From Lepiota brunneoincarnata (Eukaryota > Basidiomycota > Agaricomycetes > Agaricales > Agaricaceae): a stretch of DNA of 64,000 nucleotides. The notes beneath the pieces were generated by a model that searched no databases, had not been told where the DNA came from, and saw only the letters and a program-made list of their open reading frames with translations. The stretch lies in contig JAEBUN010000019.1 of NCBI GenBank assembly GCA_023014365.1, positions 186,001-250,000 on the forward strand, in the 5' to 3' direction. Positions 28,671 through 64,000 of this stretch are shown here, piece by piece. Both the position numbers and the translations under genes were made by a program. The stretch's first letter is position 1, and the number at the start of each line of letters is the position of its first letter.

Positions 28671-29146
28671 AGTTTCTCCATTCTTCATCTGTAACCAGGA
28701 CACATCATCAGTCTCCATACCCATACCAGTTTCCATTCCATTTGTAATCCATTTGTAATCTGTTTGTAACCATATTGGTCTCCACTTCACTCTGTCCATA
28801 GTCAGTATGAGTCATAATTTGTAAGACCCACAGTATATATACCATAGGTACTTGGCTTGTACTCTTCAGTCTGATAATCGAATTGAGCAGCAGACCAGCT
28901 CCCTATTCCATATCCTCTCCTCTCTTCTGCCTTGCTCTGCCTTGGCCCCGACCACCTGAAATACAGACTTGGACAGTAGGAGGGCACAGCACATAAGCTG
29001 AGGCTGCAAGTCCAAACCCCTGCTCAAAGTACTCCTACCTTGGTCCCAAGGTCTATGTACTGACTTTGCCCTCTCCCCTGGTTACCTTATATCAAGGATA
29101 CCACCCCAACCCTCCACTTTGGTCCCAATCTGCACTGGCTCTAACA
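28671..29146 (+). repeat. D1 5' LTR, second part
   Basis: It continues the LTR after the copia insertion and ends GGCTCTAACA at 29146. It matches 47809-48280. The interior of D1 begins at 29147. Confidence 0.92.
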
Positions 29147-29595
29147 GTATTATCAGACTCAAACTCCTCCTGTCCACCACACTCTGAATTTTTCTAATCA
29201 TGGTCTCTCGAACAGTCACCTGTCCCACACCCTGGTAAATCCAGCCACTCACTGTAGCAAATGCATAACTTGACAACCTCCTTCTGAGGAACTGCAACCC
29301 TGGCTCCCCAAGGGCTTCTTCGCTCTCACCAACAATCTAGTGTGCCCTTGACTCCAGACTGGTTCTCTGAAGATATACAACCTTCATTATTCTGGACTCC
29401 CAATGGGCCAATGATGGCCCCAACCCCAATCCTGATCCCAGTGACCCTGGTGATCCCAACAACTATCCTGACAATGGGGACAGGCCCCTGGGCAATGACA
29501 AACCATCAGACAACAGCAACAACAACAACAACATCCCACCTAGCAACAACCGAGATGACCATGATCAACTCCTACTCCAAGTTTTCTGACACATA

Positions 29596-31199: not shown

Positions 31200-32399
31200 T
31201 AGCCGATCAAATGGACAGCCATGGGAACTCTCAAGCCCCACAGCCCCCCTGAACTCCCTGTACCAAAGCTCACAAACCTGACATCTTTACAGGTTCTGAC
31301 CCTGCCAAACTCAAACCCTTCCTCTTCCAGTGCTGACTCTACTTCTGTACTAACCCAGCTCAGTTCGCTATCCCCACCACCAAGGTCAACTTTGCATTGA
31401 CATACCTTACAGGCATGGCACAGCAACACTTCAAAATCAGCCTCAACAAGGCCAACAACCATGGAATAATACACAACTGAATTGAGGACTGGGACCAGTT
31501 CACCCTGGAACTGCAGACCAATTTTGGCCCTGCAGATCTGACCAGAGAAGCTGCTGAGCAGCTTGACTCCCTCCAAATGCAGCTATGACAAGAAGATCAC
31601 TGTCTACAACATCAAATTTCTCCATCTAGCTGGCCAACTATACTGGGGTGATGAAGTATTCTGTCACTGCTACTATAAAGGCCTCCCCAACTACATCTAG
31701 GACATTCTGTCCAATTGGCCTAATGGCAAGCCTGACACCTTCATTGAAATGCGAGCAGCAGCAATGAAGATCAATGCTTGCTACTGGGAGTGCCAGCATG
31801 AGAAGGCCTGTGCCAAAGCCACTTCAGACCCAACTGCCTCTAGAAAACCTGGAGGCAATCCATCCCCATCCACCTTGTCCAACACCCAACCTGCTGCCAA
31901 GCCTGCCAACAGTAACAACAAAGGCAGCACCCCCAACAACAACAACTACAAGGGTACTCTGCCCAACCCGTCCACTGGTCAGAAATTGGCCCCACCCAAA
32001 TCCTGACCTTACTAGTAAACTTGGTAAGGATGGTAAATTAACCCCTGAGGAACGTCAATGACATTTCAACAATAACCTCTGCCTTGTCTGCACAGATCCC
32101 AATCACAGGGCTGCTAACTGTGACAAGAAGAAATTCCCTGACACCAAGGCTAAAGGCTGACAGGCTCAGCTCCCCAAGACAGATGCACCAGCTCTCCCAA
32201 GCTCAGAAGAATAGTCAGCAGGTCCTCAGGCCTCTGCACAGACTGAGGATTGCATTGAACTCTGCTGTGCTCCAGAGAATTTCTGTCCCAATACATCCAC
32301 TCTTTCCGACCCAAACTCCTTTCATATCACATTAACTTCTCCTTTAGTTACTTCTTTATCTTCTGTTTCCACTTCCGTACTCTCTGCTTCAGACCCACT

Positions 32400-35250
32400 T
32401 TCTACCATGGACAATGTAGTTAGTTCTGATTTTTCTTCTCTTTCTCCTTTCAAAGCTCTTGTTGATAGTGGTTCTACTCACTGTTTTGTGGACTCATCTT
32501 TTGTTCATTCTCATAGTATTCCAACCTCATCCATCCTGGCTATTGAACTTCAGTTATTTGATAGGGACCTCAAATGCCTACATTCCAGAGCTTGTGCAAC
32601 TGCCTGTATCCTTCCCCTCTGGTGAATCTATCATTTTGGACACTTATGTATGTCACCCAGCTCGACTCTTCCTGTTCTGTGGTCTTAAGACACAACTGGC
32701 TCACCTGCTACAATCCAGTTGATTGACTGGGCTTTGGGCAGTATGACTTTCTAGCCATCCCTACTCAAGAATCCTGCTTCTATCTCTACCTGCATCACAC
32801 CTGCATCAGCCCCGCCTATGGCCACCCCTGACACTCCTGACCTAGGTTCACCACCCCTGTCTGGGACCTTGTCCCAATCTGTCCCCCTTGCAAAACTGCA
32901 CATATCCCTGATAAACGCTCCTGCCCTTATCCATGCTGCCAAGCTCCCTGACTCCCAACAATTCCAAATCAATCTCTCCAGCACCTCTGCATCAGGCCAT
33001 GTCTTCTTCTGTCTCCGAAGACCCAGCTGACCTCTCATCCATCCTCAAGGAATACCATGAGTTTGCTGATGTTTTCAGTAAATCACGTGCTGACACACTT
33101 GCTCCACACTGCCTTTACAACCTCCAGATTAACCTAGAGAATGGTAGTCAGCCTCCATTCAGTACCATTTACTCCTTTTCAAAATCAGAGCTTGGAGCTC
33201 TATGTGATTTTATTCATGAACATTTATCCATTGGTTTCATTTGCCCTTCCACTTCTCTTCATGGAGCCCCAGTCCTCTTTGTCAAGAAAAAGGACAGCTC
33301 CCTCTGCTTATGTGTTGATTTTAGAGGTCTCAACCATATTACCAAGAAGGACCACTACCCCCTTCTGCTCATCTCTGACCTCTTAGGCTCCCCTTGCAAA
33401 GCCCACTGTATATACCAAAATTGACCTCTGTCACACTTACCATCTGGTCTGCATTGCTGATGGTGATGAATGGAAGACTGCCTTTTGGACCTGCTACAGC
33501 TCCTTTGAATGGATGGTCATGCCTTTTGGCCTCACCAATGCCCCCACCACCTTCTAGTGGTTCATGAACAATATATTCAAGGACATGCTTGATGTCTGCA
33601 TTACTATCTACCTTGATGACATTCTGATATACTCTGACAATCATAGTATCCATTGTGACCAAGTCAAGGAGGTCCTCAAGCAGCTCCAACAACATGGTCT
33701 ATACGCCTGCCCTGACAAATACCAGTTCCACTCTGACACAGTGGAATACCTTGGCTACATCCTTTCCCCCAACGGTCTCTGAATGGACCAATCTAGGGTC
33801 GAGACCATCCAGGAGTGGCTGGAACCCAAGAAAGTCAAGGACATCCAGTCCTTCTTAGGTTTCACCAATTTCTACCATCGCTTCATTCATGGTTACTCCA
33901 ACATTGTTGTTCTGCTCACTTGCCTCACCTGCAAAGATGTGAAATGGAATTTCACTGAAAAATGTTGCAAAGCCTTTAACTCCCTGAAGGAAGCATTCAT
34001 ATCTGCTCCCATCCTCACTCCTTGGGCCCCTGATGCTCAGATCATTGTCAAGACTGACACCTCCGACTATGCCCTTGTGGCTATCCTCTCTATCATCACT
34101 GATGATGGGGAGGTTCACCCCATTGCATTCCATTCCCTGCACCTTTAACATGGCCTAAACTTGATTATGACACCCATGACAAGGAACTCCTGGCGATATT
34201 TGAGGCTTTTTGTATCTGGCGGCACTATCTTGAGGGTGCCCCTCTTACTATTGATGTAGTCACTGACCACAAAACCTCAAATACTTCTGCACCACCAAAA
34301 TCCTTACTTGCCACCAAGCTTGTTGGTCTGAGTTCCTGTCCCAATTCCACCTCGTCATCTGGTTCCAACCCGGCTGCCTTGGCACCAAGCCTGATGCCCT
34401 AACTAGACAATGGGATGTCTACCCTAAAGGGGGGAATAGTGACTATGCATCAGTCAACCCTGCACAACTTCTGGTCTGTGTTCACTCATGAACAGCTCAT
34501 GGCCTCTGTCCTGTGCCACCACTCTTTATGGCCCTTCCCTTTGTGCAGCTGTAGTCATGGACCTTGATCAGCTACACTGCGACATCCTTGCTGCTCTACC
34601 AGTGGATCTGACCACTTCCTGCCCACCTTGCCAGCCCAGAAGGCCATTGGTCAGTTAATGATAAAGGTTTCCTCCTCCTAGACAACAGAATCTACGTCCC
34701 TGATGCTGACAATCTCCAACTTTGGGTCCTCCAGTACAAGCATGATCATGTCCTAGCCAGCCACTTTGGTCATAATAAAATGCTGGAACTCATCCAATGC
34801 AAATACACCTGGCCTAGTGTCCACACCTTTGTCAAGGATTTCTGTAAGTCTTGTGTCACCTGTATGAGGTCTAAATCCCAGCACCACTGCCCCTACAGTC
34901 TCCTCAAGCAACTCCCCATCCCCAAATGCCCTTGGAATTCAATCTCCATGGACTTCATCAAAAAACTCCCTGCCTCCTCTGGCTATGACAGTCATCCTAG
35001 TAATAGTCAACAGACTCACCAAGCAATCCTTATTCATCCCCACCCACAATACCATCACCTCCTCTGACCTTGCCTGCCTATTTGTCCTCCACGTCTTCTC
35101 CAAGCATGGCATACCTGAACATGTTACCTCCAACTGTGGCTCCAAATTCATCTCTTACTTCTTCTGCTCATTGGGACAAGCCCGCAACATGAAACTACAC
35201 TTCACTTTGGGCTACCACCCAGAAGGTGATAGACAGACAGAACACACCAA
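32400..35250 (+). pseudogene. D1 pol: protease, RT, RNase H, integrase (5' part)
   Basis: Protease DSGSTHCF near 32465-32490. RT from 32933 ([31 protein letters not shown]) through MPFGLTNAP (33520) and YLDDILIY (33610-33635). RNase H with TDTSDYAL near 34050. Integrase zinc motif HDHVLASHFG with CKSCVTCMRSK (34740-34880), MDFIKKLPASSGY and YHPEGDRQTEHTN, where it stops at 35250 because element C replaces the rest. It aligns with D2 pol. Changes such as LTRKDVKW to LTCKDVKW and DECCEAF to EKCCKAF are C-to-T/G-to-A transitions. Many stops and frameshifts. Confidence 0.9.
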
Positions 35251-43879: not shown

Positions 43880-43881
43880 CA

Positions 43882-44169
43882 GCCACACCTAATACCATAC
43901 CTGCCCAATTGGACCTGCCACCTGTGCCAGTTTCTATTGACGGCAAGCCAGAATACGAGATTGCTCACATCGTTGACTCAAAGATTGATCAGCACTGTGC
44001 ATGCAAACTCCTCTACAAAGTCATTTGGTTAGGTTATGAAGACACCAAAGAAGAGTCTTCATGGTTACTGGCTACCAAGCTTGAACATGCCATAGATCTA
44101 GTGGAGGCTTTCCATTCCTCTTACCCTGCTAAGCCTGGCCCCCCCCATTCACTCCAGGTTTTCCACTGA
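43882..44169 (+). pseudogene. D1 pol C-terminus with chromodomain
   Basis: It continues D1 pol after element C: ATPNTIPAQLDLPP, then the chromodomain EYEIAHIVDSKID...YKVIWLGYED...SSWLLATKLEHA. Chromodomains steer integration of chromoviruses toward modified histones. It aligns residue for residue with D2 (61490-61740). The stop at 44167-44169 (VFH*) is probably the natural end. Confidence 0.88.
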
Positions 44170-44632
44170 TCACCCACTACACCAAGAAACAAAAAATGTA
44201 TTGGACAAGTACAAACTACCTGTCTGTGTCATTCCCAGAGGTGCAGGGTGGCACCGCCACATCCTCCATCATATCTTGCACCTCCTCTTCCGAAACGCCT
44301 CCAATGCTCTCTGATTCCTCCATCTCCTCTGTCTCCATAATACCCCTACTCAACCAGTTACCATCCACCTGTGCTTCCCAATGCTGCAACTGTTCATAGC
44401 AGCCAGCCATCACTTTGATCTTATCCACCCTCTCCCCCAATCGAGTGATGGCCCATTTGAGCTGCACCTCCATAATATTGACCTGTTTGAGGGTCTTCTG
44501 GTGCCCCTCCTCAATGAGTTGCTTCAGCTCTACAGGATCATTTGGTCAGCAAACCTTGCAGTCAGAAACCCCTACTCACCTTCAAATTGGTGGTCCAGCA
44601 TACCTCCGGCCCTGCAGCATTTCTTCATTTTG

Positions 44633-46592
44633 CTATTTACACGCCTATACATGAATTCCATACTCCAGAACAATTCTCTACATAGAATCATTGGCTATAT
44701 CATTAAAAAACCCTATAGAGGATTGGTACTATGTCCCTGTAGTAGCCAGTTCGACCGAACTGAGGATATTCAAGCCTCGGAAGTGTTCAAACCAGCTCAT
44801 TATCACTAAGCTTAGTGAACCAAGCTATCAGAATGCTCTCCGGAGGGATTCTGGACTTTACATAGCCTATCGAGTATACTCCGGTCGCATCAAGAGACCT
44901 TACAAGCAGTTTTCTGATGAACTCGGATTTGTTGGAACCTAAAGAATGTACATAGCAGCTGTCACAGGGGTATTACGCCCATAGCAAGCCCAATAATGAT
45001 GACTGGACCATGGAACGGAATGTCCAACATTCGGGAGGTGACACCCGATGCCCAAAACCATAGACATATCAAAGACTCATAATTAACGAGTGCTTTGTGG
45101 GTCCCAGCACCTCGGCATACTGCCTGACTGAGATTAATTACAACGGATCAAGGGATTGTACATATGCCATACATTCCAATCATAATTGATCCGGAGGTTT
45201 AATGCGCTTGCGTGGATGCAGAATAATGCAGACGAGCACTGAACACGTCTGGCTGGATTGCCATTCATCAATCAGAGAAAAACCCATAACCCAGGGCAAG
45301 GTAGAAATGCTGCCGAACCTTCCAAAATATTCTGCAGTACCTGTAACAATTAAGCTTATTGTTTTCTATTTCATATTTACTATCTCTCGCATGTATCTAA
45401 ACAATATATATATGGTCGCGCTTGTTCGTGGAGAAGCAAGAGGTCTCACCCCTGCTTCCACATGTAAGTCTGCAAGCCGTGATCAAGAACAGTTTCAGAG
45501 GACTATTTAGTGTGCATCATTAAGTGTGATTTCTTCGGTCATTGACCAACCCAGAGACAGAGACAGAGACCAGAGTTCAGAGTTTAGAGTTCCAGAGTGC
45601 TAGAGACAGAGACAGAGACAGAGAACAGAGTTCAGAGACCAGAGACCAGAGTCTAGAGACCCCGAGCTTTGAATTGACAGGGATTGTCCTTTCACTGTTG
45701 CACCATACGGCTAAGATAACTTCAATGGCTGTTTGTTAACCTCTAAAAACACTATTCTCTTGAATTTCGCTGTCAGAATGCACCCCCAGAACACCCTAAA
45801 AGATGAAACTGTTCATTATCTATCTCATACTACTTGTATTAACTTAAGCTTATCGAATTTCGACTAAGCTTAGTGAGAACAAGCCATTTATCTATATTAA
45901 AACCCACTGTTAGAGCCGGTGCGGGTCGGAACCGAAGCGGAGGGTCGGGGTGGTATCCTTGGTATAAGGTAACCGGGGGACGGGACGACGTCAGTACGTA
46001 GACGGCGGGACCGAGGCGGAGTACTTCAGGCGGAGAGTGGACTTGCGGCCTCAGCTTATGTGCTGTGCCCTCCTACTGTCCAAGTCCGTATTTCAGGAAA
46101 TCGGGGCCGAAGCGGAGCGAGGCAGAGAGAGAGGAGGATAGGGAACAGGGGACTGGTCCGCTGCTCGATTCGATTATCAGACTGAGGAGTACAAGCCAAG
46201 TGCCTACGGTATATATACTACTAGCTCGACGAATTATGACTCGTACTGACTACGTGCGGAGCGAAGCGGAGACCCATATGGTTACAAGCAGATTACGAAT
46301 AATTTCGAATGGAATGGAGACCGGTACGGGTATGGAGACTGGTAACGTATTCTGATTACGGACGGAGAATGGAGAACTGGACAATGGGAGCACCGAGGGT
46401 CAGGTGATCGTGGCACGTGTAGAGGTAGGTCGCGTGATCGGGGCGAAGGGTTGCGGTCGGAGCCAGTCGGGGCCGAGTCGGAGGGCATAGGGTTGTCGTG
46501 TGGAGCACACGTGGAGTCGAGAAGCCGAAGCCTAATGGTTAAGCTCGAGGTTTGGTGTGGATATGACACCCACAAACATTTCCACATTTTCA
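44633..46592 (+). repeat. LTR B4, split by a solo D LTR
   Basis: It matches the other B LTRs from ACGCCTATAC onward; the first bases are missing or diverged, so the left end is approximate. It is interrupted at 45908-46568 by a D-family LTR and ends CATTTTCA at 46592. It sits in the D1 antisense gene, and compared with D2 about 400 bp of that gene were lost at the site. Confidence 0.8.
45908..46568 (-). mobile_element. Solo LTR of family D inside LTR B4
   Basis: 661 bp, TGTTAGAGCCGG to GGATATGACA, with a perfect CCCAC duplication (45903-45907 and 46569-46573). It is oriented like the D2 LTR and opposite to D1. CpG-rich and little decayed, so much younger than its host D1. Confidence 0.93.
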
Positions 46593-47528: not shown

Positions 47529-47607
47529 AAACCAGTTCACCAGTTTTTATACTCAGGTGGATTTTTCCAATGGGCCCAGTCTAGACCGCCTAGGGCCTTG
47601 AGGCTTG

Positions 47608-47625
47608 GCCCTAAAGGGGGGGCAC
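47608..47625 (+). promoter_or_regulatory. D1 polypurine tract
   Basis: GGCCCTAAAGGGGGGGCAC abuts the 3' LTR (TGTCATATCC at 47626). It is the primer site for plus-strand DNA synthesis in LTR retroelements. D2 has the same tract, inverted, at 60218-60235. Confidence 0.8.
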
Positions 47626-48280
47626 TGTCATATCCATGCCAACTATGAGCCTAATCATTAGACTTTGGCTTCTCGACTCCACCCAGCTCCACACTGAGAA
47701 CCCTCTGACTTGGCCCCAACTCACTCTGACCACAACCCATTGCCCTGATCATGCAGTCACCTCTGCACATGCCATGGTCACCTGATCCTTGGTGACTTTA
47801 CCTTCAGTTTCTCCATTCTTCATCTGTAACCAGGACACATCATCAGTCTCCATACCCATACCGGTTTCCATTCTGTTCATAATCCATTTGTAATCCGTTT
47901 GTAACCATATCAGGTCTCCACTTCACTCTGTCCATAGTCAGTACAAGTCATAATTTGTAAGACCCACAGTATATATACCATAGGTACTTGGCTTGTACTC
48001 TTTAGTCTGATAATCGAATTGAGCAGTGGACCAGCTCCCTGTTCCATATCCTCCCTCTCTTCTGCCTTGCTCTGCCTCAGCCCTAACCACCTGAAATACA
48101 GACTTGGACAGTAGGAGGGCACAGTACATAAGCTGAGGCTGCAAGTCCAAACCCCCACCCAAAGTACTCCACCTCAGTCCCAAAGTCTACATACTGACTT
48201 TGCCCTGTCCCCTGGTTACCTTATATCAAGGATACCACCCCAATCCTCCGCTTTAGTCCTGATCCACACCGGCTCTAACA
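47626..48280 (+). repeat. D1 3' LTR
   Basis: 655 bp, uninterrupted. It shows the empty site for the copia insertion. Compared with the solo D LTR and the D2 LTR it has lost many CpG sites (for example CGGTACGGG-like stretches now read CCATACCG). CCATG follows at 48281-48285. Confidence 0.93.
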
Positions 48281-51255: not shown

Positions 51256-51641
51256 TGTTACCCAGGTTAGGGGTTCACTCTTGAGTAGCATGGAGTTCGA
51301 CACAGGATGTCTATACAGACTTGGTCCTGTCCTACTAAGCGTGACTTGGAGACAACGGAGCACTATAGTCCAGCTGGTTTAGAGGCAAAGAGTTATAGGA
51401 GGCAAGAACTTTATAACACTAAGATAAGGATACAAGGTATTGTACTGTATCCTTATATATCTCTAAGTGTGGCTGTACTCCTACTATAATAATCTGGACC
51501 CAAGTAACTATGAGTCAGAGATAAGGAACATGAGGCGTATACTAAGAATAGTCCTTCTGATGTACACTACTGATGGTTTCATAGTGACATGGGAATGTGG
51601 ATTAAAAATAACCTGTCCTTCTGATAAAGCTTCTGATAATA
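51256..51641 (-). repeat. A2 3' LTR
   Basis: 386 bp, TGTTACCC to GATAATA. The final TAACA has become TAATA, a C-to-T change. Confidence 0.93.
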
Positions 51642-51757
51642 TTAGGTCCGTTTCTAGAGTTGTTTTCCATTACAACTGGTTAGTTTCCTTCCTCTGGATA
51701 TTTGGCTAGGTAATTTGGCTTGTAGTAGTCGACTTGGGGTTGGTTGGTGGAGTCTGG

Positions 51758-53032
51758 TCAAGGGGGGATGACAGGGGAAAAGGTGGGAGTAGGAGTTCTG
51801 TGGAGATCAAGTATGGCGGCAGTTTCTGGGGATGGGGGTTGTCCTGGATAGAAGATGTTGTATAAGAGGCATCTGAAATGAGGACTTTCTATCCTTTCTT
51901 CTGGTGGTGTAGTTGGGTTTTCTTCAGAAGGAACTGCATGGTTCTTCCTGTAATGTTTGATTTGGCAACATTGTCGTAACATTCCTCATAGTAGTTGTCG
52001 TTGGTGAGATCAATGTATTGATGGTGAGTTGTGGGAATGGTCAAGGGATGGGTTGTTGGATTTCTGGAGTAGGGGGCATGTTGAGTCTTTCGATTTGGAC
52101 ATTTGGTCCATTTATGACGGGGTTGGAAAACTGCGCAATGGGGGCATCGATATTTGATGCAGTCATAGGAGTAGTGCCCTGGGGCATATTGTTTGCATCC
52201 GAGGCATGCAAATTGGGGGCAGTCCATGGCCCAGTGTCCAGGTATGTCTACATTGGATGCAGACCGATCTGTCGGTGGTTTGGGGGTTGGTTTGTGTGTG
52301 AATGGGATTGGGGGAGTTCTGAATTGGGATGTTGTTATTGGTGATGGTGTGGGTGGTGTTCTTGGTGGGGGTGAGAAGTCTGAAGGGATTTCTGATGTTG
52401 GTGGGCTTCTTTCCCTTGCTGGGGGCAGTGGTAGTGATTTGGCAGGGGTTGTCGTGGTAGTGGTGGGGGAGATGGTTATGGTGGGGGGCTGCAAGGTATG
52501 TATCTCATCTCATTTGGGTAAGTTCTTTGACACCTTGGACATGAGGCTCAATCTTGAGTGGAGAAGTTGCTCAAGTGATTCTGCCCAGGCACATTGCATA
52601 TTGTATGCAGTAGCAAGAGCCTTAGTCTGTCATACGTGGTGGGTATAATCGTACCAGAGTTGTCGGTCATATTCTGAAATTGAAGTGTGTTCCAATTTAG
52701 TTGTAAAGGCTCCATCGGTAGCAGCCTCACACAGATCTCTGTCAGAAGGGTGATCTGGTCCATGTGGCCGTACTCCAGCTGTATGGTATCTAAGGGAGGT
52801 GGCTGGGGCGCTTGTTGGTTCTGGGGTGGCGTTGGGGTTGGGGGTCTCATCTCTGAGAGAGGCATATGCAGGCAGCGAAGGTGTGAGAGGGGGTGTTGGG
52901 AGATGGGGCTGGAACAGGAGTTGTCTGAAGTGTAGTATGTTTGACACTAGAAGATGATGAGGAAGTTGGGGAAGGTGTTGTTGAGAAGGGGGGAGTGGTT
53001 TGGGGGTGAGTGAGGTCAAGGTTCATGGGCAT
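51758..53032 (-). pseudogene. A2 extra 3' ORF with zinc knuckles
   Basis: Counterpart of 2167-3539 in A1. The start at 53032 gives MPMNLDLTHPQ. The Pro/Ser/Thr-rich N-terminus (52847-53032) and gag-like middle (SEYDRQLWYDYTHHV near 52640) are followed by a long C-terminal frame, 51889-52494. The first knuckle is frame-shifted here (only GHWAMDC remains). The second (CLGCKQYAPGHYSYDC) and third (CPHCAVFQPRHKWTKC, both CX2CX6HX4C) are complete at about 52090-52210. With A1's intact first knuckle, the family protein would have three in tandem. Confidence 0.72.
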
Positions 53033-53099
53033 CTTTTAAGTACATTTGGTGTGGGAGTGGAGTTGTCTTTGGTAGGTTCTGGTGGGTTCCTGATCTTTC

Positions 53100-56000
53100 T
53101 GGAGAATTCCATGAGCTTCTTTATACTCGGTTAAGTATTCTTCGGCATGTTTGTGCGGAGTGTTTCATTGGTGATCCATTTGTTCTCCATGTGGGAGTAT
53201 CCTTTCCATTTGACGTAGTATTAGAGTTTTCCATGATATTGGCAGGTGATTTAGAATAGCTTCTATCTCGTATTCTTCTTCTTCATTGATGATATCTGGT
53301 AGGTGGTGGAGTTGGATGAGATCCGTATGCTTCTGTTTCAGTATATGGGGTTAGAAGATTTTGGTGGAATACTGGATGTATCTTCCATTTGATCAGAAGT
53401 TTTAGTTTGTATGTGAGTGGTGATAAGACTTCTGAGATAAGGTCCTAGTCTTTTTGGGGATATTTTGTTGGAGATGAAGGGGAGTTTGAGGTTCTTGGCT
53501 TCTAGCCATACTTTTTGACATGTTTCAAGGGGTTTGACAGTTCTTCTGGTTCTTTGTTTCATGATATCAGGCAGAGAGTTGATGTGCCACATGTGCTTCT
53601 TTTCTGGTGTCATCAAGGAGCCTGATGCATTTGTCTACTGATGGAAAGTTTGATGTTTCCATTACCGTGGGTATTGGCAGAGGGTTATATCCCATGATTA
53701 GTTCAAATGGGGATTTTTGCCTTGAGGCATGTATTTTGGAGTTGTGTGTGAACTTGGCAATAGGGAGGGTTTCTGACCAGTCAAGGGGGTTACTGGTACA
53801 GTATATGGCAAGGTATGTCTTGATTTCTTGGTTGTATCATTCAGTGGAACCATCTGTCTGTAGATGGTATGCGGTTGAGAATGCTTGTTGGATATTTAGG
53901 CATTTGGCTAGCTCTCAGAAGGAGTTGGCAGCAAATCTGGGGTCTCAATCTGATATGATTTTGTTGGGTAGTCCAAATCTAGTGAAGACTTTTCTATTAA
54001 TAGTCATCTGATGTCATCGGTGTTTGATTCGATCTGAGGTTGGGATGAAAATTACCCCCTTCAGTAAGGCCGTGGTCCACCATGGACAATATCGCATTAT
54101 GACCAGCACTTGGGGGTAGACCAGTGATAAGATCCCATGAGATTTGAGCAAATGGGCATTTGGAAGATGATGGTGGGATTAGTTGAGTTGGTGCATGATC
54201 CAGTCTGCATATGGTTCTGTGTTGCTGGCACTCTGGATAGCCTTTGATGTAGTTCTTTATGAACGTTGACATTCCTGGCCAATATACTTCTTTTTTGGCA
54301 AGGAGGTATGTTTCCTGTTCTCCAGGGTGACCATGTGTAGGGTAGTCATGGTATCTTGTGATGACATTGTGTCTAAGTTGGAGGTCTTCTGGAATTATGA
54401 CACGTTCTTGAAATGTGAGGAGTGGACCATTTGAGGTCAGGACTGTTCCAAAGTCCTTATCGGCAGCGTTAGGATATGATTCTTTGAGGAGTTTGAATGC
54501 TTCGGTGGTTCTAGCATCATACTTGGGTGATTCTGTGATTCTTTCTTGGAGTTCCATATTGATGGTGGTGATAAAGAGGTGTTCTGGGAGTACTGTGATC
54601 ATGTTTTGATCTTCTATGTGGGCTGCGGCAACAAAGAGGTTGTTTGGAAGCATGATGACATCTTTGTTATCGTTATCCTCATCAGGGATGTGGTCTGGAC
54701 ATCCTGATAGAGTGTCTGGTGCAGGGATCTTTGATCCTGGGATGTGTTCTAATTTGAAGTTGTAGTCAGCGAGGGTCTGGACCCATTGCACTTGTCAGTG
54801 GTTGATTTTCTGGGGTTTACACCAATATGTGGGGTTTTGGTGATCCATTCCTGATACGGACAGTATGGGGGCTGCCAAGGAGATAGTGGCACCATTCTTC
54901 AAGGGCTTGGATAATAGCAAGAAGTTCCCTGTCATAGATGTTGTAGTTTTGTTCTGCTGGTCCGAATATCTTTGAATAGAATGATACAGGTTTCTGTATT
55001 CCATTGATATCGTGTTGGTACAGGACAGCTCCTGATGTGAATTTGGAAGCATCGGCTTCTATTTTGAAGGGTTTTGTGGAGTTGGGCATGAGGAGTACTG
55101 GTTCCTTTGGATAGGAGTTGGTTAAGGGGTTTGGTGTGATGGGAGTAACTGTGGATGAACTTCCGGTAGAAGTTGCAGAATCCAATGAATTTCCGAATGT
55201 GTCAGACTGTTTTTGGTACTGGTCAATCTTCTATTCCCTTGAGTTTCCCAGGATCCATTTTGATTTTGTCTGGTGTGATGATCATGCCAAGATATTCGAG
55301 TCAGTTGTTTGTTGAACTTGCATTTCTCCATTTTGAGGTAGAGGTTGTTTTCCTGCAGTATTTGCAGTACCTTTTCTGTAAGTCAGTTGGTTTCTTCTTG
55401 GGTTTTACCATAGATTAGGATATCATCCATATAGATGATGATTCCTCCTTTCTCCATTATCTTGGAGAATAGCATGTCCATCATGTGTTGGAATGTTGCG
55501 GGACTATTGCAAAGTCCTGAAAAACATAACAGTTGGTTTGAAAAGACCCATAGGAGTCTTGAACACTGCTTTCCATTGGTTGCCATCTTTGATTCTGACA
55601 TTATTGTATCCTAGGTGGACATTGAGCTTAGTGAAGTACTTAGCTCCTTTGAGTTTATCCATGATAGAGGAGATCATGGGAATTGGGTAGGCATTTTTGA
55701 CAGGTGTGATTGTTTAGATAATGATAGTCTTGGCAGGGTCGGAGGTCTCCTCCTTTCTTCGCAACAAAGAAGAAGGGTGATGCCATAGGGGATTTTGAGG
55801 GGCGGATGTACCCTTTTCAGAGGTTTTCATCTATAAATTCTTTTAATGCTTTTTCTTTGGCAGGTGCCACTTGATAAGGTTTCATTGATTTTGCTTTGAA
55901 TGTTGGTTTTAGTTCAATTTTGTGATCAAACGTTCTTGATGGTGGGAATCAGTTTGGATGCTTTCTTGTTGAATATTTTAGCCCATTGGGCAAATCTCCG

Positions 56001-56633
56001 AGGGATCTTGGGTGATTCCTCGTTTGATTCCAGTTGTTATCCTTTTTGGTTTGCCAATTTTGTTGGGTTATGTTGCTCATTGTGGAGTGTTGTGGCATGT
56101 GTTGCTTTGGCATTTACTTCTAATGGGGTTAGAAGCATTGGGTTCATTTCTCTCTCTAAAGAGAAGGTGTCGAGGTCAACATTTGACAGGTTGACATATT
56201 CTTCGGGGTTTTCCTCGGGTTGAGAGGTTTTTCCAGCCATTATGTCCATGGCAATGGAGTTGAGTTTGATGGGTCATTGTAGGGTTCTGAGGAGTTTGGA
56301 AAAGTCTTGGTGATTGATTTGGGGTTTCCAAGAGAATGTCTTGGTTTTCCAGTTGATGTCAGGATTGTATTGTTCCAACCAGGGAAATCCGATGATGAGA
56401 TCTTTTTCACCAGTGTTTGTGACATACACTTCTAGCATACAATCTCTTCCATCAATGATGGTCCTGATTTTGATGTATTCATGGATCTTGCCATGTTGAT
56501 TGTCAGTTCCATCAATGTTACTGAGAGGGATTGGTTGGTCCAGCCGTTTGGTTTGATAACCATGTCTTTCAATGACTTTGTGGGAGATAAAGTTCCCTTG
56601 GGCTCCTGAGTCTATCAGGGCTGTGATGGCCAT
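53100..56633 (-). pseudogene. A2 pol: protease, RT, RNase H, integrase, chromodomain
   Basis: Protease 56274-56633 (DSGAQGNFISHK). RT around 55383-55800 with YMDDILIY, and FTKLNV where Asp is usual, the same change as in A1. RNase H 54817-55185. Integrase 53997-54791 (HPTHGHPGEQE, CQQH, WDLITGLPPS) continuing in other frames to about 53560. The chromodomain is near 53130-53280 (EYEIEAILNHLP, then VKWKGYSHMEN in a second frame). Broken by many stops and frameshifts. Confidence 0.88.
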
Positions 56634-56824
56634 GGGTTTTGATGTTCGTTCACTCCAAATCTCAATGGATAAGAAAAGGGATCATTTATTCAGGGATAGT
56701 TGTAATTGTACAGAGTTTATTGAGAAAATGTCCTTCTGGGAGTGAGAGTATGAAATGTCCTTCTGAGTTCTGGAACATGCAGGGGCACATCAGTCAACAG
56801 CGTTCCTTTTTAAAAATCCTGGAA

Positions 56825-58003
56825 TGGACGCATTTCTGGATCCTCGGCTAGCAGCAGAGTGGAGTTCTTGTTGGAGTTCAGGGTCAAGGTCATCGCCTAT
56901 TTGGTGCATCTGAGATGTGACTTCTGCGATGGCAAGAGAATACTTGCATTGCAGGTGATTGCTGGGCATTTCGGTTCAGAAATCCAGGACAAGTGTTTTG
57001 TTGTCCAGGGAAGGGACAATTGGGGTTTCTCGCAGGGCGAGGGGGGTTGGTGTGCATTCCTGGGAAGCATCTGGCTGGTGGTGGTTGTGGGCATTTACTG
57101 ACCCAATGGTCTTTAGCTCCAGCATCGGAAGCATTCCTGGTTCTGATATGATTTCATTTGTTGTCCGGTGACAACGGCATCTAACTCCAATGGTTCTTGA
57201 GCAGAGTCTTCTTTGGCATATTCCGGTTGTGGAATTTTGGGGTAAGGATCTTCGAATCCTTCTTCTACTGTGGTATGGTCTATTTCCATGGTGTGTGGGT
57301 CTCATGGGGTGAAACATGGAGCATTGCTCCTTTGGTAAAACTGTGCATATGGCATGTTGTTGTTTGGATGGTTGGGTCTGCAGTTGGGTTGGTATCGGTT
57401 CCTTTGAGGGAGCATGTTTCTGGGTGTGCTGTACAGGGTGTTGATTCTGCAGAAGTTGTCATTGAGTTTGTTGGCTTGGGTATACCAAGCGGTGATGGTT
57501 GTTGGAGGGTTTTCCAATTTGTTGATCTTCATTGTGATGCAGCGATCGATTGCTTTGTGATAGAGATCAATCAGGGTGCAATCTTTGTTAAGTCCAGATT
57601 GATGGACAAGTTCCTTGAACTGAGCATTGAACTCAGTCATCAGTTTGCCTGCTTGGTGCAGGGTTTGAAGTCTGGTGTGTGTGTACGCATGTTCATCTGC
57701 CAGGGTGAAGTCAGCTCTAAGTTGGGCAGTGAAGTTGTCCCATGACTCCATGGCTATGGGTTGTCCTGCTTGGGTTTGTGCGTTCCTCTCATGGAGGTAT
57801 TGTCTGGCCCAGGCTCGGGTATCTCCTGATTGCATTGTCAAGAGGACGAATAGGGTTTTGGTGAGGTCAGTGTTGTAGGTAGTCACATTAGCAAGTATGT
57901 AAACTTCACATTGGAAGATCCAATCTTCAAAGAGTCTTCTAGTTCCATTGAAGGTGATGGGTTTGAGGAGACCTAACTCCTTTGGGGTGTGTGTGGTGGC
58001 CAT
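56825..58003 (-). pseudogene. A2 gag
   Basis: The best-preserved gag core of family A: an open frame 57302-58003 starting MATTHTPKELGLLKPITFNG, with the gag pattern GDTRAWARQYLHERNAQ and ESWDNFTAQLRADF. The CCHC knuckle region lies near 57090-57130 but is frame-shifted. The charged N-terminal part (upstream to about 58600) and a Pro/Val/Leu repeat (about 58010-58110) are in other frames. Likely non-functional. Confidence 0.85.
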
Positions 58004-58980
58004 TATTTGTAATTGTCTGGGTGGCGGTGGCAGTGGTTGCAGTGGTTGCAGTGGTTGTACAGGTGGTACCGGTAGGGCTAAGGGTTGTACTGGTGCAGGT
58101 AGTGCAGGTGGTTGAGGATCAGGGTCTGATTGGTTGTTGTCAGTGATGTAGACGTCTGAGTTGTTGTCTGCTGGGGGAGTTCTTCCTTGATTTACTGTGT
58201 ATTCATGATGTGTGAGTAGGTTTTCCTCTGATTGGGAAAGTTCTCTTGGTTGTTTGAGGGCGTATTCGAGTTTTTGAAGTTCAAAGTCATTTAGTGGGTC
58301 TACTTTAGCACAGTATTCTTCAGCTTGTTTACATCTTCTTTCTTCTTGTTCATAGTGTTCTTTTAATTCTCTTTCATGTTGTATTCTTTGTCATTCTGCT
58401 AGTTCTTCAGCAAAACTTGTTCAAGTATGTGTTGATGTACTTGGAGCAGGTGAATTGAATGGAGATGGGGGATAGAATGGGGACAGTGTCCAAGTGGGGA
58501 TAGGGTTTCTTCTGGGATCTGGATTTTGGGTTCCTGATCCGGAGATTCTACCTCTTGATTTGGGAGGAGGTGATGGAGTTTCTCAGGCCAAGAACTTCTT
58601 TGGAGGTGTGGTGGCAGTTATCTAGCGATCAATTATTGCTAGAAGAATGAAAAATTGGGTTGCAATGATGGAGATTCCTGAATACAGGTTCCACAATCTG
58701 ACGACACAGCAGTGGCAGGGGCATGTGATGCATTTGAGTTCTAGGGTGATTATTCAGTAGGCGATAAGGGTGGCAGTGGAAGTGAAGACAAAAATGAGTA
58801 GGTAAGCCAGGTCTTCTGGTGGGGAGAGGTTGAGGGATGTAGCGATGGCTACACAGAGGGGTGGTTTTCTTTTGCACATCATTTTGAACAACCAGAGTAT
58901 CTTGATGTGTTCAGTACATTGGCAGAGCAGAGCAGAGTGGAGGGCAAGCAAGAGATAAGCAGCAGAGTATCTTAGTGTTT

Positions 58981-59262
58981 TGTTACCCGGGTTAGGGGTT
59001 CACTCTTGAGTAGCACGGAGTTGACACAGGATGTCTATACAGACTTGGTCCTGTCCTACTAAGTGTGACTTGGAGACAACGGAGCACTATAGTCCAGCTG
59101 GTTTAGAGGCAAAGAGTTATAGGAGGCAAGAACTTTATAACACTAAGATAAGGACACAAGGTATTGTACTGTATCCTTATATATCTCTAAGTGTGGCTGT
59201 ACTCCTACTATAATAATCTGGACCTGAGTAACTATGAGTCAGAGATAAGAAACATGAGGCGT
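58981..59262 (-). repeat. A2 5' LTR, interrupted
   Basis: It starts TGTTACCC and matches the other A LTRs up to GAGGCGT at 59262, where LTR B5 begins. The remaining 104 bp or so must lie beyond the window, past D2. Confidence 0.9.
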
Positions 59263-59557: not shown

Positions 59558-60217
59558 TGTTAGAGCCGGTGCGGGTCAGGACCGAGGCGGAGGGTCGGGG
59601 TGGTAACCTTGTTATAAGTTAACCGGGGGACAGGGCGAAGTCAGTACATAGACTTCGGGACCGAGGCGGAGTACGTCGGGCGGGGGTTGGACTTGCGGCC
59701 TCAGCGTATGTGCTGTGCCCTCCTACTGTCCTAGTCCGTATTTCAGGAAGTCGGGGCCGAAGCGGAGTGAGGCAGAAGAGAGGAGAAGATAGAGAACAGG
59801 GAGCTGGTCCGCTGCTCGATTCGATTATCAGACTGAGGAGTACAAGCCAAGTACCTACGGTATATATACTACTGGCCTTACGAACTATGACTCGTACTGA
59901 CTACGTGCGGAGCGGAGCGGAGACCAATCTAGTTACAAACGGATTACAAACGGATTACGAATGGAATGGAAACGGGTACAGGTATGGAGACTAATAACGT
60001 ATCTTGACTACGGATGGGAAATGGAGATGGGGGTATGAGACACCGAGGGCCAGGTGACCACAGCACGTGTGGAGGTGGTCGCGTGATCGGGGCAGGGGGT
60101 TGCGGTCGGAGCAGGTCGGGGCCGAGTCGGAGGGCAGAGGGTTGTTGTGTGGAACACACGTGGAGTCGAGAAGCCGAAGTTTAAATGATTAGACTCTGAG
60201 TTGGCATGGATATGACA
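59558..60217 (-). repeat. D2 3' LTR
   Basis: 660 bp, TGTTAGAGCCGG to GGATATGACA on the plus strand. It matches the solo D LTR (45908-46568) closely. A TATA-like GGTATATATAC lies near 59858. Confidence 0.93.
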
Positions 60218-60235
60218 GTGCCCCCCCTTTAGGGC
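60218..60235 (-). promoter_or_regulatory. D2 polypurine tract
   Basis: GTGCCCCCCCTTTAGGGC is the reverse of the tract before the D1 3' LTR. It abuts the LTR end at 60217. Confidence 0.8.
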
Positions 60236-60292
60236 CGAGCCTCGAGGCCCAAGGCGGTCTAGGCTGGGGCCCATCGGAAAGTTCCGGCAGGG

Positions 60293-60300
60293 TATAAAAA
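60293..60300 (+). promoter_or_regulatory. TATA box of the D2 antisense gene
   Basis: TATAAAAA lies 49 bases before the start codon at 60349, inside the retroelement and on the strand opposite to pol. D1 keeps the same box in inverse form (TTTTTATA near 47546). It would place the transcript start about 25-30 bases upstream of the start codon, ideal spacing for a fungal gene. Confidence 0.65.
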
Positions 60301-60348
60301 CGGTGAACTGGTTCGATTCCAAAAAACACAACTTGACCTCTTACTCCC

Positions 60349-61412
60349 ATGAGCAGACAACCCTCCCGACAACCGACCGCCGTGGAGCGCAAGGCGCAAT
60401 TGTTGAGGGAGAAGGCGGAACGAGAGGAGCGAGAGCGGTTGGAAATCGAGAGGCTGGAGGAGGAGGAGCAACGAGAGGAGGAGGAGCGGCAGCGGATGAT
60501 AGCGCTGTGCCAGCAACAAGCGGAGGAGCGGGCGAGAGAGTGTATGGCGGAAGATATCAGGCGGCAACAAGATGAGGCTGCCGAGGCAGAGCGTCGGGTG
60601 ATCCGGGCCTGACTCATCACAACGACTACGGGGGCCTCGTCGAGCCGTCCGTCGGAAGAACCGATGCAGGTAGATACTGAGGAGTCGGATTCCGAATACA
60701 CGGATAGGGACGAGGCGGAAAATGAGGAGGAGGAGGAGGAGGACGAGGACTCCGGGGACACAGGGGGTAAGGGAAAAGCAAGGGCGAGGGCAGCCCCGCG
60801 ACGGGGCCATGCGAACATATTCGGGGGTGAGAACCCCTGCTGGAGGTGCGAGCGAAATAGGGTCCAGTGTGAGGTCGCTGGCGGGTAAGTCATTTTGAGG
60901 GTTTCCAGGCTACATACTGATAGTTTTTTAGTAACACCAGGAGTTGCCGTCGGTGCAGCAAAATGAAAAAACGGTGCAGGGGTCAAGAGGAGACGGAGCC
61001 GAGCGGGGCCGGGGGGATGTCGGGCCAACAATTTGAAGGTGAGTGAGGAATTTCTGACTGCGAGGTTTGCTGACCAAATGATCCCGTAGAGCTGAAGCGA
61101 CTTATCGAGGAGGGGCACCAGAAGACCCTCAAGCGGGTCAATATCATGGAGGTGCGGCTTGCACAGGCCATCACTCGATTGGGGGAGAGGGTGGACAAGG
61201 TCGAGCTGATGGCTGGCCGTTATGAACAGTTACGGCGTTGGGAGGCGCAGGTGGATGGTAACTGGTCAAGTAGGGGTATTACGGAGACGGAGGAGACGGA
61301 GGAGTCGGAGGAGTCGGAGAGCATCGGAGGTATTTCGGAAGAGGAGGTGCGAGGTATGATGGAGGATGCGGCGGCGCCGCCCTGTACCTCTGGGAACGAT
61401 ACGGACAAGTAG
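60349..61412 (+). CDS. Antisense Zn2Cys6 cluster protein of retroelement D2
   Basis: A gene on the strand opposite to pol, between pol's end and the 3' LTR. Exons 60349-60884, 60932-61038 and 61090-61412; introns of 47 and 51 bp with GTAAGT...TAG and GTGAGT...TAG. The spliced length is 966 bases, 322 codons, in one frame. A single TGA at 60610-60612 interrupts it, probably a mutated CGA. Domains: Glu/Arg-rich coiled coil (residues about 12-85), acidic Asp/Glu run (about 105-145), then CWRCERNRVQC...CRRCSKMKKRC, i.e. CX2CX6CX9CX2CX6C, the fungal Zn2Cys6 DNA-binding pattern, assembled across intron 1. A second helical region (LKRLIEEGHQ...GERVDKVELM) and an acidic C-terminus follow. The fold is as in fungal transcription factors; the role in the element is inferred, perhaps controlling LTR or host transcription. 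Because of the TGA, full-length product from this copy would need readthrough. Confidence 0.82.
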
Positions 61413-61471
61413 TTTGTACTTGTCCAATAATATTTTTTGTTTCTTGGTGTGGTGGGTGGTCAGCGGAAGAT

Positions 61472-64000
61472 TCAGAGTGAATGGAGGGGACCAGGCTTAG
61501 AGGGGTAAGAGGAGTGGAAAGCCTCTACTAGATTGGTAGCGTGTTCAAGCTCGGTTGCCGGTAACCATGAGGATTCTTCTTCAGTATCTTCATAACCTAA
61601 CCAGATGACTTTATAGAGGAGCTTGCATGCGCGGCGCCGATCAATCTTCGAATCGACGATGCGGGCAATCTCGTATTCTGGTTCACCGTCAATAGAAACT
61701 GGCGCAGGTGGCGGTTCCGATTGGGCGGGTATGGTGTTAGGCGTAGCCAGTTCGAGCATGGAAACATGGAAGACGGGGTGTACCCCACGCATGGAATCAG
61801 GAAGTCGGAGTGTAAAGGAATGGGTACCTGCTTGTGCAATGATCTCATAAGGCCCAAGGAACTTTTCGGAGAGTTTTTTGGAAGGACGGGTGGTGCGGAA
61901 GAATTGGGCTTTCACGAATACCTTTTGTCCAACCTTGAAGTCCGGGGCGGGGAGTCGGCGGGTGTCGGCGGAGGTCTGATACCGTTGCTGGGCTAGCAAT
62001 ATTTCAGACTTCAAGGTGGTATGTAGGTCGTCGAGGTCAACAGCAAAATGGCGGGCCCGAGCGGAGGCGAGATCGCGTTCAGGATGCACTGTGATGTTCG
62101 GATGGTATCCTTTATTAGCGAAGAACGGGGAGATACCGGTGGTGGCACTAGGAGCGTTGTTGTAAGCAAACTCAGCTAGTGGTAGTAATTCAGACCAATT
62201 GTCCTGTTGGTAGTTACAATAGACCCGGAGATATTGTTCCAGGGTCTGGTTGGTGCGTTCCGTCTGTCCGTCGCCTTCTGGATGGTAGCCCGAAGTGAAA
62301 TGTAACTTCATATCGAGGGCTTGTCCCAATGAGCGGAAGAAGTGGGAGACGAATTCGGAGCCGCGGTCGGAGGTAACATGTTCGGGTACGCCGTGCTTGG
62401 AGAAGACGTGGAGGACGAATAGGCGGGTGAGGTCGGAGGAGGTGACGGTATCATAAGTCGGGATGAAGAGGGATTGCTTGGTGAGTCTGTCAACGATTAC
62501 TAGGATGGCGTCGTAGCCGGAGGAGGCGGGGAGTTTTTCGATGAAGTCCATGGAGATTGAATTCCAAGGGCGTTCGGGAATGGGGAGTTGTTTGAGGAGA
62601 CCGTAGGGATGGTGGCGCTGGGGTTTAGACCTCATACAGGTGACACAAGACTTACAGAAATCCTTGACGAAGGTGCGGACACTAGGCCAGGTGTACTCGT
62701 GCCGGATGAGCTCCAGCGTTTTATTCTGACCGAAGTGGCCGGCTAGGACATGATCATGCTTGTACTGGAGGACCCGAAGTCGGAGATTGTCGGCATCAGG
62801 GACGTAGATTCTGTCGTCTAAGAGGAGGAAACCTTTATCATTAACTGACCAACGGCCTTCTGGGCTGGCAAGATGGGCGGAAGCGGTCGGATCTGCTGGT
62901 AGGGCGGTGAGGATATCGCAGTGTAGCTGATCGAGGTCCATGACTACAGCTGCGTGAAGGGAAGGAGCGTAAAGAGTGGTGGCACGGACGGAGGCCGCGA
63001 GTTGTTCATGAGTGAACACAGGCCGGAAGTTGTGCGGGTTGACTGATGCATAGTCGCTATTCCCCCCTTTAGGGTAGACGTCCCATCATCTAGTTAGGGC
63101 ATCAGGCTTGGTGCCGAGGCGGCCGGGTCAGAACCGGATGACGAGGTGGAATTGGGATAGGAACTCGGACCAACAAGCTTGGCGGCGAGTGAGGATTTTG
63201 GTGGTGCAGAAGTATTCGAGGTTTTTGTGGTCGGTGACTACATCAATAGTAAGAGGGGCACCCTCAAGATAGTGCCGCCAGATACAAAAAGCCTCGAATA
63301 TCGCCAAGAGTTCCTTGTCGTGGGTGTCATAATTAAGTTCGGCCGTGTTAAAGGTGCGGGAATGGAATGCAACGGGGTGAACCTCCCCATCATCAGTGAT
63401 GATAGAGAGGATAGCCGCAAGGGCGTAGTCGGAGGCGTCGGTCTCGACAATGATCTGAGCGTCGGGGGCCCAAGGAGTGAGGACGGGAGCGGATATGAAT
63501 GCTTCCTTCAGAGAGTTAAAGGCTTCGCAACATTCGTCAGTGAAATTCCATTTCACGTCTTTGCGGGTGAGGCGAGTGAGCAGAACGACGATGTCGGAGT
63601 AACCGTGAATGAAGCGACGGTAAAAGTTGGCGAAACCTAAGAAGGACTGGATGTCCTTGACTTTCTTGGGCTCTGGCCACTCCTGGATGGTCTTGACCTT
63701 AGATTGGTCCATTCGGAGACCGTCGGGGGAAAGAATGTAGCCAAGATATTCCACTGTGTTGGAGTGGAACTGGCATTTGTCGGGGCGGGCATATAGACCG
63801 TGCTGGTGGAGCCGCTTGAGGACCTCCTTGACTTGGTCACGATGGATACTGTGATTGTCGGAGTATATCAGAATGTCGTCAAGGTAGATAGTAACGCAGA
63901 CGTCGAGCATGTCCTTGAATATGTCGTTCATGAACCGCTGGAAGGTGGCGGGGGCGTTGGTGAGGCCGAAAGGCATAACCATCCATTCGAAGGAGCCGTA
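61472..64000 (-). pseudogene. D2 pol: RT (C-terminal half), RNase H, integrase, chromodomain
   Basis: The frame is open from the window end, through [17 protein letters not shown] (RT) and YLDDILIY (catalytic). It continues through RNase H (VETDASDYALAA; DHKNLEYF) to a TGA at 63128-63130, a second TGA at 63086-63088, then open again to 61472. Integrase: HDHVLAGHFG with CKSCVTCM, SMDFIEKLP, TSDRGSEF and DGQTERTN, all catalytic residues present. GPY/F (FLGPYEIIAQAG) is followed by a chromodomain (EYEIARIVDSKID...VIWLGYED...SWLPATELEHA). Both stops look like CGA-to-TGA changes; otherwise this is a complete-looking enzyme set. The end of pol and the end of the antisense gene are 59 bp apart, tail to tail. 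Confidence 0.9.

Follow-up and report, generated by a model that had tools for sequence, protein, structure and literature searches.

The window analysed here, a stretch of 64,000 nucleotides from Lepiota brunneoincarnata, holds a Ty3/gypsy chromovirus at its right end, on the minus strand, in which Pfam recognizes gag, RT, RNase H, integrase, and chromodomain. The class assignment follows from gag, the placement of RT-RNase H before integrase, the C-terminal chromodomain, and the LTRs, which occur as a pair in copies L044 and L048. The interval that separates the LTR (59558-60217) from the pol stop (61472) holds a gene on the strand opposite gag-pol, arranged as follows:

60290..60348, plus strand: predicted antisense core promoter, with TATAAAA at 60293-60299 and the ATG 56 bp downstream
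60349..60884, plus strand: exon 1 (536 nt), with a charged E/R-rich helix, an acidic segment, a basic segment, and the first CX2CX6C half
60885..60931, plus strand: intron 1 (47 nt, GTAAGT...TTAG), which interrupts the six-cysteine domain
60932..61038, plus strand: exon 2 (107 nt), with the second CX2CX6C half (SCRRCSKMKKRC) and a linker
61039..61089, plus strand: intron 2 (51 nt, GTGAGT...GTAG)
61090..61412, plus strand: exon 3 (323 nt), with a coiled-coil-like segment and an acidic tail, ending in the stop TAG at 61410-61412
61472..63085, minus strand: C-terminal part of pol, with integrase, SH3_Tf2-1, and chromodomain (Pfam), converging on the antisense gene

Read directly from the window sequence, the spliced model has three exons and GT...AG introns and amounts to 966 nt (536 + 107 + 323), the exon number and length that a sequence-only reading of this stretch had proposed. 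That reading was also right to place the gene between pol and the 3′ LTR on the opposite strand, as is clear from the positions of the pol stop and the LTR, and to spread the pattern CX2CX6CX9CX2CX6C over intron 1, as the spliced window copy confirms. However, it began the feature at 60293, which is the non-coding TATAAAA box, whereas the ATG lies at 60349. It had also described one continuous frame, but the window copy is broken by an in-frame TGA at codon 88 (60610-60612, exon 1) that went unmentioned. Among the copies with the upstream region covered, TATAAAA is found in 48 of 50 and the ATG in 50 of 50. A stem-loop, GGACAAGTA-GTTTG-TACTTGTCC, spans the stop codon of the antisense gene in the window copy (61403-61425), and the sequence of this region differs in the young copy L053. 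On the minus strand, a sense frame of 346 aa (60189-61229) is open in the window copy yet has no Pfam match, and was set aside.

The window contains further elements. Partial copies of the same family, with 83-89% identity, lie at 31200-35250, 28674-29595, 47530-48280, and 43880-44504, and a solo LTR of the family, flanked by the target duplication CCCAC and bearing CGG modules, lies on the plus strand at 45908-46568. On the minus strand, a different Ty3 element occupies 51256-59262, and its paired terminal repeats are 95-98% identical over 282 bp. Between its pol frames and repeat, this element has a minus-strand ORF (51889-52509) with zinc-knuckle-like cysteines, which scores 18 bits against zf-CCHC, below the cut-off.

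Conservation across copies and linkage to pol

The host genome (55.6 Mb in 95 contigs; the fungal Zn_clus family matches it at 25 places) supplied 58 copies for alignment: the 30 best DNA matches (the window copy, 28 near relatives, and L038), 20 members of a young subfamily, and eight others. These were selected as long matches, which keeps deletion derivatives out of the set, so fractions taken from it are not a census. Within the set, the spliced frame is uninterrupted in 24 of 58 copies, comprising two of the 29 in the old subfamily to which the window copy belongs, L038, 16 of the 20 young copies, and five of the eight others. Two of the three non-open members of this last group (L075 and L076) are represented by slices that may end too early. 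The search for an open spliced frame in other copies, which the sequence-only reading had suggested as a check, is thus answered in its favor. The summed exon length is divisible by three in 23 of 29 old copies and in all 20 young ones. Segments corresponding to both introns are present in every one of the 58 copies, GT and AG stand at all four splice sites in 56 (the exceptions being L030 and L036), and 54 of the 58 spliced copies retain all six cysteines when a middle loop of 8 or 9 residues is allowed and stops are ignored.

The old copies have decayed mostly by C-to-T change. Among the 23 of 29 old copies whose frame length is divisible by three, TGA accounts for 34 of 35 premature stops. 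In the young subfamily, 94 of the 96 variable coding columns are transitions, 77 of them at CpG (19 of 20 copies, L059 being omitted for its different length). Given this pattern, the TGA of the window copy is best read as decay and is no argument against a gene.

Selection on the frame was examined pairwise in five open representatives, namely L013 and L016 (old), L038, L053 (young), and L070. Across the resulting 10 pairs, dN/dS of the antisense frame is 0.13-0.29 and is the lowest of the six frames every time, while the other five frames contain stops in every pair. The absence of stops from the antisense frame is given by construction, since the representatives were chosen as open, but the ratio is not. 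One of the reverse frames, in which wobble positions coincide with those of the antisense frame, also shows a low ratio (0.19-0.44). It has 3-8 stop-bearing codons in each of the 10 pairs, and its ratio is therefore taken as a mirror effect rather than as a sign of coding. A chance ORF or a shadow of a sense gene is ruled out for the antisense frame.

The lineages compared for the antisense gene are separated by dS of 0.3-1.0. For pol of the same lineages, dS is 0.38-0.75 and dN/dS 0.02-0.10 (between-lineage pairs of 140-173 codons, recovered at four of nine loci tried, with the one stop in L038 pol skipped). The antisense protein changes faster than pol and is still clearly constrained. The sequence-only reading had proposed dN/dS across copies as a test, taking a value near 1 among young copies to speak against a gene. 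Between subfamilies the ratio is far below 1, as given above, but within the young subfamily pooled pN/pS is 0.55, and the pair L053 and L072 reaches 0.78. We attribute these higher values to decay, because most changes inside the young subfamily appear to post-date insertion. Across subfamilies, the frame, the splice sites, and the cysteines are retained with dN/dS well below 1. Judged by this comparison of copies, the antisense gene is a real, spliced, protein-coding gene, maintained by selection and accessory to a fungal chromovirus.

No homologue outside the host genome was found in three protein searches (at E 0.001, at E 1 with the region as query, and at E 1 with the alignment as query), which scored 7995, 264, and 7994 candidates, respectively, in collections whose only fungal proteins and genome were those of the host. 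One scan of viral contigs likewise yielded no homologue of the antisense gene.

The gene lies tail-to-tail with pol, at a distance of at most 1.4 kb, in 98 of 124 scored pol copies (those scored among 1296 first candidates; the antisense gene contributed 125 rows, 124 of them from 199 matches). Six of the 26 pol copies without such a gene row were inspected. A single deletion, common to three of these (L077, L079, and L080; G000 C25, C52, and C69), takes away both the zinc and the coil regions and leaves a remnant of 71 residues, which stays in frame throughout in L077 and L080 and has an extra stop in L079. The exact junction of this deletion occurs four times in the genome, adjoining pol frames of 1181-1286 aa, so that a derivative without the zinc and coil regions has multiplied to at least four copies. 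Of the remaining three, L081 has lost the zinc cluster through a deletion that keeps the frame, with a remnant of 219 aa, L078 has an out-of-frame deletion, and in L082 the gene is interrupted by an LTR. Because at least four copies without these regions have long pol frames, the gene is not needed in cis, and it follows that the protein works in trans, that the element can do without it, or that it is a brake from whose loss the element gains. The spread of the derivative counts against an essential role.

The gene has also been reshuffled by recombination between subfamilies, since L053 and L070 are nearly identical in exon 3 (1 difference in 308) and identical in intron 2 (0 in 51), but differ by 23% in exon 1 and by 50% in intron 1.

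The six-cysteine domain and its candidate target

The protein of copy L053 begins at its N terminus with a highly charged helix of E and R, continues through an acidic and then a basic stretch into the six-cysteine domain, and closes, after a short linker, with a heptad segment and an acidic tail. A coiled-coil-like segment and acidic regions, in line with the sequence-only reading, are thus recognizable in this copy. Its coil segment has a clear hydrophobic heptad, with a mean hydropathy of 1.31 at a/d positions versus -1.48 elsewhere. Gal4-type proteins have the same order of cluster, linker, and coiled coil.

Zn2Cys6 clusters follow the spacing rule CX2CX6C-X5-12-CX2CX6-8C, and the first half is typically basic, as in CxxCRxRKxKC. 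The spacing of the binuclear cluster (PF00172) is found in 54 of 58 spliced copies. However, the first half of the domain is not basic (for example CWRCERDGVQC), and the basic run stands in the second half (CSKMKKRC). Against Pfam Zn_clus, with its gathering cut-off of 21 bits, two full-length proteins give 12.7 bits and no match, three 60-residue slices give 21.0, 14.1, and 20.9 bits, and the slice of the window copy gives 15.9. The first CX2CX6C half aligns to profile positions 15-31, that is, to the second half of the model, while the second half alone gives no Zn_clus match. These features suggest a Zn2Cys6-like domain in which the order of the halves is reversed. The description of the domain as a canonical Zn2Cys6 cluster consequently holds for the spacing, but not for a profile score that lies at or below the cut-off or for the apparent order of the halves; the profile search that the same reading had recommended brought only its best slice level with the cut-off and left full-length proteins below it. 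A search of the PDB gave no significant relative, with Pho7 at no better than E 9.9. The protein here and the Gal4-type factors share the spacing CX2CX6CX9CX2CX6C followed by a linker and a coiled-coil-like segment, and the protein differs from them in its seemingly reversed halves, its weak Pfam score, and its being encoded by a retrotransposon.

Zn2Cys6 proteins typically read CGG triplets. The LTR carries four spaced 17-bp modules of three such triplets each, TCGGGRCCGARKCGGAG, or CGG-N2-CCG-N3-CGG:

59558..60217, minus strand: 3′ LTR, in sense TGTCAT...CTAACA, with a sense TATA-like box TATATATA at 59861
59576..59592, plus strand: CGG module 1, with 1 mismatch to TCGGGRCCGARKCGGAG in the window copy
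59655..59671, plus strand: CGG module 2, a 17-bp site
59751..59767, plus strand: CGG module 3, a 17-bp site
60116..60132, plus strand: CGG module 4, with the sense TATA-like box on one side and the antisense TATA on the other

The ends of the LTR are supported by the solo LTR with its 5-bp target duplication CCCAC; no target duplication was seen by eye at the LTR ends of L048. At least four module sites within 3 mismatches are found in 30 of 31 delimited LTRs, mostly of the old subfamily, and eight of the 31 retain no exact CGG triple. In each of five LTRs, none of 2000 shuffles reached the observed count of exact triples, a test that is post hoc because 64 triplet arrangements had been scanned before the module was found and the 31 LTRs are related copies. 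Genome-wide, the module 17-mer has 792 exact matches, and its reversed form has 0. Elsewhere in the part of the element that the window covers (60218-64000), no module occurs within 3 mismatches, and the four exact triples in the first 59.5 kb of the window all fall in the solo LTR of this family. Neither LTR of a different Ty3 element in the window contains CCG-N3-CGG. In L044, three exact triples fall in the 6.5-kb internal region.

The modules are thus a plausible candidate target of the antisense protein. The 132-bp stretch upstream of the antisense gene shows no enriched CGG arrangement. A CGG-N6-CCG site in the antisense promoter, present in 39 of 50 copies, is not enriched over shuffles and was dropped as main evidence.

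Antisense genes of other retroelements

An antisense gene is already known in a fungal chromovirus, and the zinc-cluster variety appears to be new. The known case is brtn, reportedly treated by Zhao et al. in 2011 for Boty-like elements of Botrytis cinerea and Sclerotinia sclerotiorum. In the parts of the literature available, Boty is a fungal chromovirus with brtn in antisense between pol and the 3′ LTR, and a Boty-like element is presented with both a chromodomain and brtn (PMC4227169). The available descriptions of brtn mention no zinc-cluster product, and it is by description only that the gene here is set apart from it. Among the top-ranked matches in open-licence PMC papers, judged by titles and abstract openings, none describes a fungal retrotransposon whose antisense gene encodes a zinc cluster. 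The sequence-only reading, which knew of no fungal chromovirus carrying a DNA-binding regulator in this way, therefore overlooked that brtn is already antisense, but within that search its claim holds as far as the zinc cluster is concerned.

In plants, the aORF-3R genes (Grande gene23, RIRE2, PvRetro13, and Retand ORF4) are likewise antisense, located between pol and the 3′ LTR, and kept in most copies, according to the accessible parts of two papers (PMC7264820, PMC11963269). The same parts place a promoter immediately upstream of Grande gene23 and describe its product as nuclear (PMC7264820, PMC11963269), and the Retand antisense ORF4 TRP28 proteins are there predicted to bind DNA (PMC11963269). 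The gene here compares with these through its linkage to pol (98 of 124) and its dN/dS of 0.13-0.29. TATAAAA (48 of 50) is a candidate for a promoter of its own. It differs in domains and host, and it has two introns, whereas the word "intron" is absent from the main texts of both papers (PMC7264820, PMC11963269).

Retroviruses offer a further parallel, in which the domains differ again: no bZIP domain appears in Pfam scans of the antisense protein. HBZ of HTLV-1 is spliced and encodes a bZIP protein that dimerizes. Unlike the gene here, HBZ belongs to an infectious retrovirus and has no zinc cluster, and no homology is seen between them. In the accessible text, HBZ is described as a retroviral antisense gene with a nuclear product (PMC11963269) and an antisense promoter in the 3′ LTR (PMC7264820).

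Possible functions

The best explanation of the locus, which draws on the anatomy of the gene and a candidate target, is an accessory antisense spliced gene of a Ty3/gypsy chromovirus that would encode a DNA-binding regulator acting on the element's LTR. We give this reading a probability of about 0.45. The gene would be transcribed between pol and the 3′ LTR from its own TATA-type promoter, as predicted from sequence. Its introns would persist because sense genomic RNA holds both of them reversed, where they should be unspliceable, and on established retrotransposon biology they would thus survive RNA-mediated movement. The protein would work in the nucleus, binding DNA as a dimer by means of the Zn2Cys6-like cluster and the coiled coil that follows it, and its acidic regions may contact the transcription machinery. 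Acting in trans on the CGG modules, it could raise or lower the transcription of the element family, and regulation of the LTR by the antisense protein is plausible. More doubtful is a closed circuit, in which a zinc-cluster factor with reversed halves would recognize CGG-N2-CCG-N3-CGG, four times in its own LTR, and thereby exert family-wide control in trans over the activity of copies, with the deletion derivatives as parasites or escapees.

Purifying selection and linkage to pol would suit any accessory role, and a protein with a zinc cluster, a basic stretch, and a long, charged helix would be suited to bind nucleic acid. The protein might then be a selected accessory factor other than a transcriptional regulator, one that covers or accompanies nucleic acid, delivers the integration complex to the nucleus, or anchors that complex on chromatin. 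Roles of a nuclear or accessory kind are put forward for plant antisense ORFs in the accessible part of a review. We consider an accessory factor of this type unlikely, since gag-pol already has a chromodomain and an integrase, the CGG modules of the LTR would be unexplained, and copies without the domain still spread. It is improbable that the protein is a real regulator of host genes and not of its own LTR. Three of the four modules are situated downstream of the sense TATA-like box, in sequence that is probably transcribed, so the modules may work at the RNA level or be recognized by a host factor. However, CGG is the usual target of Zn2Cys6 proteins, and the modules and the gene are in one element.

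A gene taken from the host, which would ride along without serving the element, would be in keeping with the capture of genes by retroelements, the few open copies in the old subfamily (2 of 29), and the spread of the deletion derivative. We regard it as quite improbable given the low dN/dS between lineages at dS of 0.3-1.0 and the lack of any homologue outside the family, in searches whose fungal proteins were those of the host. Least probable of all is that the antisense RNA is what matters and the protein is secondary, the transcript, which would be complementary to the sense RNA, pairing with the 3′ end of genomic RNA, feeding small-RNA silencing, or blocking sense transcription, as is discussed for plant antisense ORFs in the accessible part of the literature; a purely RNA role predicts no frame, contrary to codon-level selection, and in-phase indels and kept cysteines require translation.

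The function of antisense genes in LTR retrotransposons is called unknown in the accessible part of a review. Here a compact antisense gene shows a recognizable signature of DNA binding and a coding frame that has been retained, and its candidate target is repeated in the LTR, which turns the question of function into a binding and reporter test. Its antisense placement would also have a simple reason, as only in this way could an intron-containing gene pass through the RNA intermediate unspliced. A retrotransposon-borne regulator that possibly acts on its own element is rarely documented for fungal retrotransposons, and if the circuit is true, it would represent an element-encoded transcription factor in fungi with a logic comparable to that of retroviral antisense regulators.
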